A stretch of DNA of 64,000 nucleotides from Parabacteroides sp. PM6-13 (lineage in GTDB: Bacteria > Bacteroidota > Bacteroidia > Bacteroidales > Tannerellaceae): assembly GCF_029892605.1 (NCBI RefSeq), contig NZ_JARXWF010000003.1:62001-126000 (forward strand). The letters are read 5' to 3'. Below the pieces are notes generated by a model that saw only the letters and a list, made by a program, of their open reading frames with translations, was not told where the DNA came from and ran no database searches. Made by a program: the position numbers and the translations under genes. The stretch's first letter is position 1. Each line of letters begins with the position of its first letter. This document shows, one piece after another, positions 37,830-55,033 of the stretch.

Positions 37830-37837
37830 TATATTTG
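37830..37837 (+). promoter_or_regulatory. -7 box of TlpA-like gene
   Basis: TATATTTG, exact TAnnTTTG match, directly after the AraC gene stop and 42 bp before the chosen ATG at 37880. Confidence 0.55.
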
Positions 37838-37879
37838 CCGTGTTTTATAATCGGAAATAAATCGTATAAATATTACTAT

Positions 37880-38959
37880 ATGAAAAAGTATAGCGCCTTT
37901 TTGTGTTGTTTTCTTATGCTTGCCGTATGCATGTCTTGCGGTTTTGAGAATGGATTTTTATTGGAAGGTAAACTGACAGATCCTCTTTTTGACGGAAAAG
38001 AAGTTATTTTGATAACGGAAACGGGTGCCCCGTCCGATACCGTACGGGTAGAGAAAGGCAAATTCACGATAACCGGCACGGTTGCCTATCCGGTGCGGGC
38101 GGCTTTGCAGATAGAGCATCTGACCATTCCTTTTACGTTGGTCAATGACCGGATTGACTTTTCAGAATCGGTGAACACAGAGAATGAAAAGGCCGTTGCC
38201 TATAAAAAGTCAAAAGCCGCGTCGAATATCGCCGCTTATTACGAGGCGAACAAAACACTTTTCTATCAGAAGTATATGGATTTATTATCCGCTGAGGTGG
38301 AAGCAACGACGGAAGAGGAAAAGAATAAATGCAATTTGCAGAAAGACAGCCTTGTGGAGTATTACCTGTCGGTATTGATCGACCAATATAAAAAGGAGAA
38401 GAACCGGGAGGGGTTCTCTATTATTGTGAGCGATCTCTCCGGATTGTTTGGCGTTCGGGAACGACCGGATCTGATTGGCGAATTGTTTCTCTTAGTGCCG
38501 CAGCAGGAGAAAGAGGGGTATATGGGTGAGAAGATCGAAACTTATCTGGCACGATCCGAGAAGATACGGATCGGACAAACGGTCGACTTTGCTTTTGTAG
38601 ATCATAAGGGAGTTGCCGGACGCGTTTCCGATTACGCCGGCAAACTGGTATTAGTAGATTTCTGGGCAACCTGGTGTGGCCCCTGTCTGGCACAAATACC
38701 ACAGTTGGAAGATATCAGCGCTCGCCATGCGGATAAGATACAGTTTGTAATGGTATCGATCGATGAGGATAAGGATGCCTGGTTGAAGAAAGCCGCTGAA
38801 ATGAATCCTTTGTGGCGAAACATACATTATCTCCAGGATGTGGACCTGAAAAAAGAGTATTTTGTTACCGGTGTACCTGACAACCTGCTCCTGTCGGAAG
38901 ACGGGAAAATAATGCAGCGCAGAATCTTCACAGGCGACCTGTTGAAAATACTCGAATAA
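37880..38959 (+). CDS. TlpA-family thioredoxin-like lipoprotein with DUF4369-like N-terminus
   Basis: 359 residues from the ATG at 37880; the longer open frame from 37835 is rejected because the signal peptide begins at MKKYSAFLCCFLMLAVCMSC and the -7 box lies inside the extension. Probable lipoprotein (Cys20, weak lipobox). Residues ~25-110 look like the DUF4369 domain that precedes thioredoxins in Bacteroidetes (GKLTDPLFDGKEVILITETGAPSDTVRVEKGKFTITGTV). A helical linker follows, then a TlpA/ResA-type thioredoxin domain with active site WCGPC (C266, C269) and cis-Pro region 'VTGVPDNLLLSEDGKI'. It likely keeps periplasmic cysteines reduced, or serves redox stress response. Confidence 0.88.
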   Translation: MKKYSAFLCCFLMLAVCMSCGFENGFLLEGKLTDPLFDGKEVILITETGAPSDTVRVEKGKFTITGTVAYPVRAALQIEHLTIPFTLVNDRIDFSESVNTENEKAVAYKKSKAASNIAAYYEANKTLFYQKYMDLLSAEVEATTEEEKNKCNLQKDSLVEYYLSVLIDQYKKEKNREGFSIIVSDLSGLFGVRERPDLIGELFLLVPQQEKEGYMGEKIETYLARSEKIRIGQTVDFAFVDHKGVAGRVSDYAGKLVLVDFWATWCGPCLAQIPQLEDISARHADKIQFVMVSIDEDKDAWLKKAAEMNPLWRNIHYLQDVDLKKEYFVTGVPDNLLLSEDGKIMQRRIFTGDLLKILE

Positions 38960-38963
38960 TCCG

Positions 38964-38990
38964 GCGGGGAGTTACAACTGCAACTCCCGC
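38964..38990. terminator. Short bidirectional hairpin between convergent genes
   Basis: GCGGGGAGTT (38964-38973) and AACTCCCGC (38982-38990) pair across a short loop. It covers the last codons of the leftward gene. No long T-run, so termination is only possible. Confidence 0.4.
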
Positions 38991-40093
38991 GTCAGCTGAT
39001 CCAGCCAGCCTGGTAATTCATAGAGGTGGCTGATACGGTCTTCGAAATAGGGCGGGGCGAATACGTTTATCTGTAGATCCCGGCATTTTTCCAATAGATA
39101 GGTCTCTACCGGATAGTAGCTCGCCAGCACGGCACGTGAGATATCTCCCCCGTAGGTCTCCCTGACTCCATCGATTTTATAGATATCGTTCTGGGTGACT
39201 TGGCCCGATTTACACTCGATGAAGATCAACTTCTGCTTATTGTTAACCAATACATCCACTTCGTTTTTCGACTGGGTATTCTCCGAGTCGGTCTGAAACA
39301 ATACATTCTGCCAAGCCTCCGGTGGATTCTTTTGCTGTTCTGTCCAGATGCGTACCTGATGGGCTACCAATGTCTCCCACCAACTGGCTTTGAAATAGAG
39401 ATATAAGGCGTTCGGATTAGAGACGCGAAGGAGTATCTGGCCCCGCTGGGTGAAGAGCAAGGTGCCGTTTTTTGTCTTAAAGCGCAATTCGTTTGTCAGT
39501 AGTTTGGACGGTGGCAAACGGGAAATCTGCCGGTGACAGATCACGCCGAAGAATTTCATGATACGCGCATGCTCCTGCGGGTAGTTCTCGATAAAGCGTT
39601 TGATCTGCTTGGAGGTTTGTATATTCTCTTCCCGGAGCTCTTTGATGTCATGGAACTGGGAGAGTATGTTTCCGCTTAGTTTAATGATCTCTTCATTGTC
39701 GAGCATGCTTCGCATCGGAAGGATCTCGAAGGTGTCCAGCCAAACCAGTTCACCCAGTTGTGTCAGATAGAAGGCACGGCATCCCATCTCCCGGGCGATG
39801 TCGAACGCCGCCAGTGCCATGGGCTTGGTGCCTTCGGAGAGGTGGTAAAGGAATTCTCCTTCATACTCCTGGTGGATCACACGGCACACCTCTTGCACCC
39901 GGCTTCCGTCGTAGGGATCTGTCTGGTAGGCACATTTTCGGATATGTGCCGGCAACAGCGGAAACATGGTGTCGGCAATGCCGCGTGTCGCCTCCGTATA
40001 GAGCAGGTGGATGTAATCGGGACGAAACTCTTTGATCCCGTGATAAACCGAGGTGATATCTTTCCCTAAAAGGATGATCTGGTGTTTTGTCAT
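38972..40093 (-). CDS. Card1/Can2-like (DUF1887) CARF-nuclease protein
   Basis: 373 residues, the size of Card1 nucleases. Three parts: an N-terminal Rossmann CARF-like domain (1-~135; 'HQIILLGKDITSVYHGIKEFRPDYIHLLYTEAT', with the ligand-pocket motif EGTKPM at 87-92), a winged-helix-like linker (~165-225), and a C-terminal PD-(D/E)XK nuclease with E240, D280 (NEVDVL) and E293-x-K295 (FIECKSG). In known Card1/Can2 proteins, cyclic oligoadenylate made by type III CRISPR complexes binds the CARF dimer and turns on DNA/RNA cutting. Here no cas gene, Cas10 or repeat array is seen in the window, so its activator is unknown. It is a lone leftward gene, divergent from a barrel protein. All nuclease residues are present, so it is probably active. 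Confidence 0.84.
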   Translation of the reverse strand: MTKHQIILLGKDITSVYHGIKEFRPDYIHLLYTEATRGIADTMFPLLPAHIRKCAYQTDPYDGSRVQEVCRVIHQEYEGEFLYHLSEGTKPMALAAFDIAREMGCRAFYLTQLGELVWLDTFEILPMRSMLDNEEIIKLSGNILSQFHDIKELREENIQTSKQIKRFIENYPQEHARIMKFFGVICHRQISRLPPSKLLTNELRFKTKNGTLLFTQRGQILLRVSNPNALYLYFKASWWETLVAHQVRIWTEQQKNPPEAWQNVLFQTDSENTQSKNEVDVLVNNKQKLIFIECKSGQVTQNDIYKIDGVRETYGGDISRAVLASYYPVETYLLEKCRDLQINVFAPPYFEDRISHLYELPGWLDQLTRELQL

Positions 40094-40118: not shown

Positions 40119-40126
40119 CAAATATA
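40119..40126 (-). promoter_or_regulatory. -7 box of the Card1-like gene
   Basis: Minus-strand TATATTTG, exact TAnnTTTG match 26 bp before the start at 40093; no clear -33 box. Confidence 0.5.
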
Positions 40127-40213: not shown

Positions 40214-40822
40214 ATGAAAAAGATATTTAGTTTGTTGGTTGTCTTGTTTGTGGCCTCGTATGCTTTTACGGCAAACGCGCAGTTGCGCTTTGGTTTGAAG
40301 GGTGGGGTTAATATTTCTACCGTGCATTTTAGCGATGTGCGCGAGAATTGGAATCCGAATAATGTAACCGGCTTTCATATCGGGCCGATGATTGAAGCAA
40401 CGGTTCCGCTCTTAGGCTTAGGCTTTGATGCCGCATTGCTTTATACGCAGAAAGGGATGGAACCTCAGGGCGTAGAGATAGGTGATACCAAAATAGGCGA
40501 TGACGCGATTAAGATCGATTATATTGATGTGCCCATCCATTTGCGCTGGAAGATCGATCTACCTTTGATAAAACCCTACCTGGCTACCGGTCCCTATTTT
40601 GGTTTCCGTTTGTCGAAAGACAAGGTATGGAGTGTGTTGGAAGATCAGATCAAAGCGAAAACCTTTGGTATGGGTTGGGATTTTGGCGCGGGTGTGGAAT
40701 TGTTCAACCACCTGCAGGTAGGTTTTAATTATGGTTTAGGCCTTACCGACAACTATAAACTCGGCAAAAAAGAGGGCGGTAAGAACCGGGGCTGGATGAT
40801 TTCTGCCGCTATTATGTTCTAA
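40214..40822 (+). CDS. Outer-membrane beta-barrel protein (porin-like family)
   Basis: 202 residues with signal peptide MKKIFSLLVVLFVASYAFTANA. The mature part alternates hydrophobic/polar strands typical of small 8-strand barrels ('LRFGLKGGVNIST', 'TGFHIGPMIEATVPLLGLGFDAALLYTQKG', 'IDVPIHLRWKID', 'VKPYLATGPYFGFRL'-like, 'GWDFGAGVELFNHLQVGFNYGLGLTDNY') and ends in Phe, as barrel proteins usually do. It belongs to the broad OMP_b-brl_2/PorT-like group, with no specific function known. Divergent from the Card1-like gene; ends at a strong terminator. Confidence 0.85.
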   Translation: MKKIFSLLVVLFVASYAFTANAQLRFGLKGGVNISTVHFSDVRENWNPNNVTGFHIGPMIEATVPLLGLGFDAALLYTQKGMEPQGVEIGDTKIGDDAIKIDYIDVPIHLRWKIDLPLIKPYLATGPYFGFRLSKDKVWSVLEDQIKAKTFGMGWDFGAGVELFNHLQVGFNYGLGLTDNYKLGKKEGGKNRGWMISAAIMF

Positions 40823-54164: not shown

Positions 54165-54288
54165 AACTAAAATCCCATGCCCCGCAAAGAAAGGCGGGTA
54201 GTATGTAAACGTAAATTTTTAATCTGATTGTATATAGCTCCTGTTAAATTTCCGAATTTATTTTGTATGTTTACTGGGTATTTGTTGG

Positions 54289-54376
54289 CTGACCATGCTC
54301 AGCCAACTGGTCGAGCTTAGTCAGCCAATTGGCTGAGCATAGTGAGCCAACTGGTCGAGCATGGTCGGCCACCAGC
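54289..54376. repeat. Four 22-bp tandem repeats upstream of HU-like gene
   Basis: Units: CTGACCATGCTCAGCCAACT+GG (54289-54310), 54311-54332, 54333-54354 and 54355-54376. All have the pattern (C/T)(C/T)GA-C-AT/TA-G-CAGCCAA-TGG; units 1 and 3 begin with CTGA, units 2 and 4 with TCGAGC. The unit is exactly two DNA turns. The junction of units 2 and 3 makes the palindrome CAGCCAATTGGCTG. It ends 42 bp before the ATG at 54419 and may be a multi-site regulator target. Confidence 0.8.
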
Positions 54377-54418: not shown

Positions 54419-55033
54419 ATGAAAATCAAATTTGGAGTCTATGAAAACCCGCCTGCTCCGGGTAGTGAAGAAACATCTTGTCAATTACATGGAAGAATAA
54501 TCAGTAAAGGAACGTTCCGATTGCCGGAATTGTGTGAAAACCTGCGTGAATTGGGCGTTAATTCGGCTCAGGTGAAAGCGGTATTGGACGCGACCGCTCG
54601 CTTTATCCGTCAGTCGCTGACCGACGGGTACCATGTTGAATTGGACGGGATCGGTACTTTTTCCCTTTCTTTGCGTAGTCAGTTTGTTGAAGAAGAGGGT
54701 GAAGGAGAAGAGGCAGAAGTGAAAAAAATGACTCGGTTGACAGTCGACCGAATCAATTTCAAAAGCAACAGGCGGCTGTTGGAACAGATCAACCGGAATA
54801 TGGAGTTGATGAATATATCTTCGATCCAGCCAATTCCTCCCTTTGTCTATAGGAAGCAACGCCTGTTGAAACATCTGCGAAAAAACGGTTTTATCAGTGA
54901 AAGGAAATATGCCGAGCTCAATAACTGCTCTCGCTACCAGAGTCACAAAGACCTGTCTCTTTTCGAACAGGAAGGCCTGATTGCCCGAAAAGGCACTGGA
55001 ACCCATAAAGTGTATGTGCTGGTGGAGGAATAG
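54419..55033 (+). CDS. HU/IHF-like DNA-binding protein with C-terminal winged helix
   Basis: 204 residues. N-terminal ~125 residues match the Bacteroidetes HU-HIG type ('FRLPELCENLRELGVNSAQVKAVLDATARFIRQSLTDGYHVELDGIGTFSLSL', then 'VDRINFKSNRRLLEQIN'), but the pattern is unlike classical 90-residue HU and has an acidic insert (EEEGEGEEAE). The last ~70 residues look like a winged helix ('KQRLLKHLRKNGFISERKYAELNNCSRYQSHKDLSLFEQEGLIARKGTGTHKVYVL'). Likely a nucleoid-associated or regulatory protein. The 22-bp tandem repeats directly upstream might be its own target, an untested idea. Confidence 0.78.
   Translation: MKIKFGVYENPPAPGSEETSCQLHGRIISKGTFRLPELCENLRELGVNSAQVKAVLDATARFIRQSLTDGYHVELDGIGTFSLSLRSQFVEEEGEGEEAEVKKMTRLTVDRINFKSNRRLLEQINRNMELMNISSIQPIPPFVYRKQRLLKHLRKNGFISERKYAELNNCSRYQSHKDLSLFEQEGLIARKGTGTHKVYVLVEE

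Follow-up and report, generated by a model that had tools for sequence, protein, structure and literature searches.

A minus-strand gene at 38972..40093 of the analysed window, a 64,000-nucleotide stretch of the Parabacteroides sp. PM6-13 genome, encodes a 373-residue protein in one uninterrupted full-length frame of the open reading frame (ORF) list. The original prediction, whose coordinates and strand proved exact, had described it as an orphan Card1/Can2-like nuclease with no CRISPR genes nearby. The gene and the parts of its product are laid out as follows.

38972..40093, minus strand: orphan can2/card1-type gene, a single frame with strong homologues in 28 genomes, the window's own counted
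39644..40093, minus strand: CARF domain, approximately residues 1-150, from the structure model and the CARF matches found with Foldseek and VIA-align
39818..39838, minus strand: putative SEGTKPM ligand loop, residues 86-92, in which K90 corresponds to Lys99 of SthCan2 by sequence alignment
39404..39643, minus strand: linker of helices and strands, approximately residues 151-230, from the structure model
39044..39403, minus strand: PD-(D/E)XK nuclease core, approximately residues 231-350, from the PF09002 match over residues 236-351 and the structure model
39254..39262, minus strand: E278-V-D280 catalytic pair, with E and D invariant in 28/28 sequences of the clade alignment
39209..39217, minus strand: E293-C-K295 catalytic pair, invariant in 28/28 sequences of the clade alignment

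Pfam searches placed the Card1_endonuc profile (PF09002) over residues 236-351 at 36.5 bits, above its cut-off of 26.4, while the sequence-only score for CARF_Card1 (PF23400) stayed below threshold (15.3 against 24.6 bits). The CARF fold was instead evident from the structure model of the protein (m895c3c4013af; predicted local distance difference test score, pLDDT, 91), whose top matches were Can2/Card1 structures and which matched whole Can2/Card1 chains in both Foldseek and VIA-align; residues 155-225 of the model form two helices and several strands. The motif EGTKPM lies at residues 87-92, as had been claimed, and E240, E278, D280, E293 and K295 are all present and identical in the 28 clade members, which bears out the four catalytic residues named earlier (E240, D280, E293 and K295) as well as the CARF and nuclease parts of the Card1 plan. 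Further, the PADLOC model PDLC01890 (CARF4--CARF_PDDEXK) matched the full length of the protein with 479 bits. The nearest solved proteins by sequence were 8bao and 7bdv (Can2) and 1xmx (VC1899), and a profile built from 26 sequences also retrieved 8z4i/9u49 (Cdn1). With an endonuclease match above cut-off, a single chain in which the CARF Rossmann fold precedes PD-(D/E)XK, and the E/D/E/K residues, the window protein is a member of the Can2/Card1 family (DUF1887, PF09002) with a CARF domain and a complete PD-(D/E)XK site.

We then surveyed one genome per species in the window's family (123 genomes, 61 of them with completeness of at least 90% and contamination no higher than 5%) and order (392 genomes, each at least 90% complete). 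The family search matched 32 genomes, of which 27, the window's included, carry strong homologues (50-100% identity, near full length, no internal stops), the other five being divergent (22-33% identity). Presence in the family is therefore patchy (27/123). Eleven order genomes matched, five strongly and six at 24-36% identity; a single strong carrier in that search, G354, lies outside the window's family, which brings the strong carriers to 28. The closest named record, from Parabacteroides sp. PFB2-10, is 97% identical at the protein level, and the gene also occurs in records of P. goldsteinii, P. gordonii, P. faecis and P. acidifaciens. In a tree of 39 proteins, built after removal of the fragments L077 and L092 and of the second CARF-type protein from each of L114 and L092, the 28 orphans formed one clade (support 99/99), 27 of them from the window's family. 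This clade adjoins the proteins of L114 (37% identity) and L117 (32%), both encoded inside type III loci; the deeper branching order is unsure because several branches are long. At L114:10001-12284, two adjacent CARF4 nuclease genes stand in a type III-D locus, and the product of the first falls in the group sister to the orphans. Card1 distances were ~6-fold larger than those of MutB and correlated with them (Mantel r 0.49, a value reached in 0 of 2000 permutations), in a comparison covering 25 of the 28 genomes (MutB was found in 26; it was split in G007, which was excluded, and none was found in G010 and G024). Together with the partial disagreement of the two trees, we take these values to reflect a fast-evolving gene that descended mostly vertically, probably with some transfer.

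Profile searches of the window's genome (99.46% complete) returned neither a Cas10 nor a RAMP match, using models that among 14 control genomes were positive in five and four, respectively. The orphan status that had been proposed thus held, whereas a type III system at another locus of the genome, the other option raised by the original prediction, was unsupported in this assembly. With no Cas10 match near the gene or in its genome, the gene does not classify as a type III ancillary effector. Cas10 (PF22335) was detected in 14/123 family and 47/392 order genomes. All 11 carriers of divergent Card1 proteins have it, nine of them no more than 10 kb away on the contig that bears the gene, as compared with four of the 28 strong carriers, in none of which it is close to the gene (Fisher 8e-7); the remaining 24 genomes with the orphan gene lack a Cas10 match. 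The RAMP search, which did not extend to G354, flagged one further carrier, G010. In each of the four Cas10 carriers (G033, G071, G119 and G024), a type III-B locus includes a DHH/NrN-type phosphodiesterase and a CorA-like protein; PADLOC made this assignment for G033, whose proteins then identified the other three by tblastn. According to an excerpt of PMC10600005, the CorA-type system of B. fragilis makes S-adenosylmethionine-AMP (SAM-AMP) and no cyclic oligoadenylate (cOA), and by homology these four loci may also be of the SAM-AMP type. The G024 locus (L151, contig C103) showed corA and cas10 matches in several pieces and frames, probably owing to decay or an assembly problem, and a CorA-type III-B locus in L150 encodes a reverse transcriptase (L150:5014-5991) resembling the first part of a Cas1_IIIb model.

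These distributions bear on the idea that the resident gene works in trans, answering cyclic tetra-adenylate (cA4) from transient mobile type III loci of the same or another strain. Type III is patchy in the family, as the Cas10 count indicates, signalling between loci is argued in an excerpt of PMC11229360, and G010 does hold a III-A locus together with the orphan. Yet Cas10 was not enriched among the family carriers (4/27 versus 10/96 in the rest of the family, p 0.51), the four Cas10 loci of carriers are of the CorA/NrN type, and a sample of one genome per species leaves strain variation outside its view. We regard such an in-trans role as unlikely.

Alignment to 7bdv related T42, K99 and Y118 of SthCan2 to T33, K90 and Y109 here, all three invariant in the 28 orphans, and S121 to T111 (26 T, 2 S). 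Three of the four cA4 contacts reported for SthCan2 in an excerpt of PMC7969007 (Ser19, Thr42, Lys99 and Tyr118) are hence kept, and nearby position 87, immediately before GTK, is altered, being E in 23, K in 3 and V in 2 orphans. Contact positions were conserved in at least 26 of the 28 sequences more often than other CARF positions (6/7 versus 35/143, p 0.0017). The dN/dS ratios (nonsynonymous over synonymous substitution rates) ranged from 0.038 to 0.127 in nine pairs, with low values in the CARF domain and also in the nuclease for the 7 pairs in which the latter was defined, albeit as rough values since several dS exceed 1 (10 pairs were chosen among close relatives, the tenth being saturated). 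Strong purifying selection on the orphan gene is apparent from these substitution patterns.

Alternatively, the protein could be a degenerate remnant like VC1899, its CARF domain gating nothing and its nuclease being weak and ligand-independent, or serving another role. VC1899, itself an orphan in this family, is described as a weak RNase without cA4 regulation (PMC7969007, in excerpt), all 28 clade members carry E, K or V in the GTK loop, and one synthase family alone, the cyclic di-AMP (c-di-AMP) synthase DAC, was found in the window's genome among those sought. Against this, the four shared contacts are Asp, Asp, Arg and Val in VC1899 (same excerpt), where the clade has Thr, Lys and Tyr in 28/28, dN/dS is low in the CARF domain as well as in the nuclease, and none of the 28 matches contains internal stops. 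Degeneration appears rather unlikely to us.

The search for cyclic-nucleotide synthases that the original prediction had proposed was partly productive, since DAC was recovered from the window's genome but SMODS, mCpol, DncV-like nucleotidyltransferase (NTase) and GGDEF profiles found no match there. DAC is present in 116/123 family genomes. SMODS occurred in 7/123, four of them carriers, and a DncV-like NTase in one, the carrier G045, with a model that was positive in 0/14 control genomes and that other CD-NTase (cGAS/DncV-like nucleotidyltransferase) clades may escape. These two profiles bear on a possible CBASS effector role, for which a CD-NTase gene would be expected in the genome. mCpol was detected in a single family genome other than the window's, so the gene is not placed among the mCpol-linked CARF proteins. 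GGDEF as a Cas10-like palm was likewise discarded, as it matched 3/123 genomes, none with the orphan gene. In all, 14 of the 22 family carriers that are at least 90% complete, the window's genome included, gave no Cas10, RAMP, SMODS, mCpol, DncV-like or GGDEF match.

DAC being the sole synthase family of those sought in this genome, and the E/K/V change being specific to the orphan clade among the compared sequences, a sensor of c-di-AMP or its linear product could be envisaged, the bulkier residue before GTK narrowing the pocket so that it fits an adenylate of smaller size and two-fold symmetry. Such narrowing is predicted from residue bulk, though, and the prevalence of DAC (116/123) against that of the gene (27/123) leaves no co-occurrence signal; c-di-AMP is, besides, generally a housekeeping signal. 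This reading is very improbable. Still more remote is a ligand of the RtcR kind, for instance tRNA halves with a cyclic phosphate, for which RtcR offers the precedent of a CARF domain with a non-Cas10 ligand (PMC7790460, in excerpt). RtcR families mostly lack a positive residue after strand 4, according to an excerpt of PMC4012209, whereas K90 is present here in 28/28, and no RNA-repair genes were seen among the annotated neighbours, a genome-wide search for them not having been made.

We favor, with a probability of about 0.58, the reading of a Card1 that, having left type III CRISPR, was retained as a ligand-gated nuclease for a non-Cas10 signal. The apparent lack of Cas10-type alarm machinery in the window's genome and in most carriers makes a different signal probable; simple decay is disfavored by the constraint on the pocket, and a plain cA4 receptor by the pocket change along with the missing synthases. 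The ancestor would have been an effector in a Bacteroidales type III CRISPR locus, from which the gene would have departed in Tannerellaceae, to be inherited chiefly with the chromosome and maintained by selection as a stand-alone protein. Two CARF domains would build one shared pocket in a dimer, which may bind an adenylate-type ligand not produced by Cas10 of the same cell; upon binding, DNA and RNA would be nicked or degraded by the paired PD-(D/E)XK domains, which might slow a phage or the cell. A more specific proposal, namely a CRISPR-free Tannerellaceae circuit whose Card1-type nuclease, its pocket re-shaped by E/K/V before GTK, responds to an adenylate signal from a hypothetical synthase or directly from infection, is possible but tentative. 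Of the new circuit anticipated earlier, family, catalytic residues and orphan status stand, and another nucleotide signal is one possible reading. Neither a fold without a CARF domain, nor loss of the pocket, nor a type III locus in every carrier, the findings on which the original prediction was to fail, was obtained: a CARF fold is predicted, most pocket positions are kept and the majority of carriers have no Cas10 match. If these nucleases are still ligand-gated, Parabacteroides must have an adenylate-type signal that does not come from type III CRISPR of the same cell.

Several observations weigh against the departed, ligand-gated Card1 that we favor. Ser19 of SthCan2 is replaced by Gly10, and position 87, never G or S in the orphans, is G or S in 11/11 full-length type III relatives; because of these two differences the pocket may no longer accept cOA. 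The contact map itself derives from a sequence alignment rather than a co-structure, and at the 28/28 threshold the pocket enrichment is not significant (3/7 versus 20/143, p 0.073). To this are added the roughness of the dN/dS values and the card1 and MutB trees, which agree in part only, with discrepancies that include G354. SMODS was found in 4/27 family carriers (G045, G054, G070 and G122) versus 3/96 other genomes, at p 0.041 uncorrected for multiple tests. In the carrier G010 (66% complete), a partial III-A locus comprises Csm3, Csm4 and Csm5-like genes, Cas1 and a Csx1/Csm6-type CARF protein; no Cas10 was found in it, and the contig ends there. Ten Pfam-scanned neighbours resemble mostly housekeeping genes, and no neighbour gene is conserved clade-wide in 27 neighbourhoods, that of G354 not among them, which leaves no operon clue. 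Ligand, synthase partner and activity remain putative for the window protein. Apart from these points, a PrimPol-TPR protein lies beside Cas1 in the III-A locus of G010 (L152).

The immediate surroundings of the gene are the following.

37835..38959, plus strand: thioredoxin-fold protein by Pfam, convergent neighbour, apparently outside the system
40214..40822, plus strand: outer-membrane beta-barrel protein, divergent neighbour, from Pfam and the neighbourhood comparison
40119..40126, minus strand: TATATTTG, a TAnnTTTG match to the -7 box, 33 nt upstream of the ATG

Pfam bore out a thioredoxin-fold gene and a barrel gene as the two flanks. The thioredoxin-fold gene is 12 bp away and has no relative in the other neighbourhoods compared, and of the 27 clade neighbourhoods compared (the window and L048-L073) the beta-barrel gene is kept adjacent in four, all in the window's genus. 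A conserved operon partner was accordingly rejected, and the proposed neighbourhood comparison yielded gene order common to subsets only, e.g., near mutAB (window's genus, G033/G044). The ten neighbours chosen for Pfam comprise DsbA, SIS, phosphatase, DEAD helicase, CorC/CNNM, HAD, GHMP kinase, S41 and M28 peptidase and HipA-like kinase proteins. Defence islands were also rejected: in a sample of ten neighbours, hand-picked from 144 listed ORFs, PADLOC flagged three, two of them a HipA-like pair (PDC-M66A/B) and the third matching DpdF in part. A HipA-like kinase pair stands near the orphan gene at L068:6169-7312, where it corresponds to PDC-M66A/B, and similar genes occur in L069, L071 and L072, all of one genus. 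Neither phage nor plasmid cargo was supported, since no relative was confirmed among viral contigs or phage records and plasmid records gave one distant DUF1887 protein (21.5%).

The promoter-like box claimed for the gene was recovered as TATATTTG, a match to the Bacteroidota -7 box consensus. TAnnTTTG occurs in 8/28 clade upstream regions, in 7/28 at -31 to -38, compared with a mean of 2.0/28 and a maximum of 7 in 200 mononucleotide shuffles, the clade relatives not being independent. Direct repeats of at least 22 nt within 120 nt amounted in the window to one tandem family and no CRISPR array, as previously stated. This family (54285-54371) consists of tandem 22-nt units, partly palindromic (TTGGCTGA...TCAGCCAA), and is intergenic, upstream of an ORF at 54419.

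Orphan CARF genes are a known kind. Genes unlinked to CRISPR-Cas exist in every CARF family, one from the VC1899 family being given as an example (PMC4012209, 2014, in excerpt), and homologues of Cas3 and CARF proteins are abundant outside CRISPR-Cas systems (excerpt of PMC12669027). Among the matches listed for Parabacteroides CARF/Card1/Can2 and for orphan or non-CRISPR CARF, titles and abstract beginnings revealed none on this clade. PDLC01890 already places the subfamily in a defence catalogue, where it is undescribed and the model is silent on CRISPR-free occurrence and ligand. RtcR is a CARF protein with a non-Cas10 ligand (PMC7790460, in excerpt) but, unlike the window protein, a transcription activator without nuclease. 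VC1899 of Vibrio cholerae (1xmx) is another orphan PF09002 member with the key nuclease residues and, according to the excerpt of PMC7969007, without the cA4-contact residues, of which the window clade retains Thr, Lys and Tyr. Can2/Card1 proteins (8bao, Dysgonomonadaceae Can2; 7bdv, SthCan2; 6wxw/6xl1, Card1; 8q3z, TbCan2) share the domain order and whole-chain fold, and the catalytic residues and most cA4-contact positions of 7bdv are kept; in contrast to them, the window gene is solitary, with no type III locus found and E/K/V in place of G/S before GTK. The nearest type III-linked relative found, the L114 Card1 of a Bacteroidales metagenome-assembled genome, differs from the window gene in having TGGTK and in its type III-D locus, where Cas10d and Cas1 are encoded next to it along with a second CARF4 protein. 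The clade provides a clean natural comparison between type III-linked sisters and type III-free relatives that differ by one consistent pocket change.
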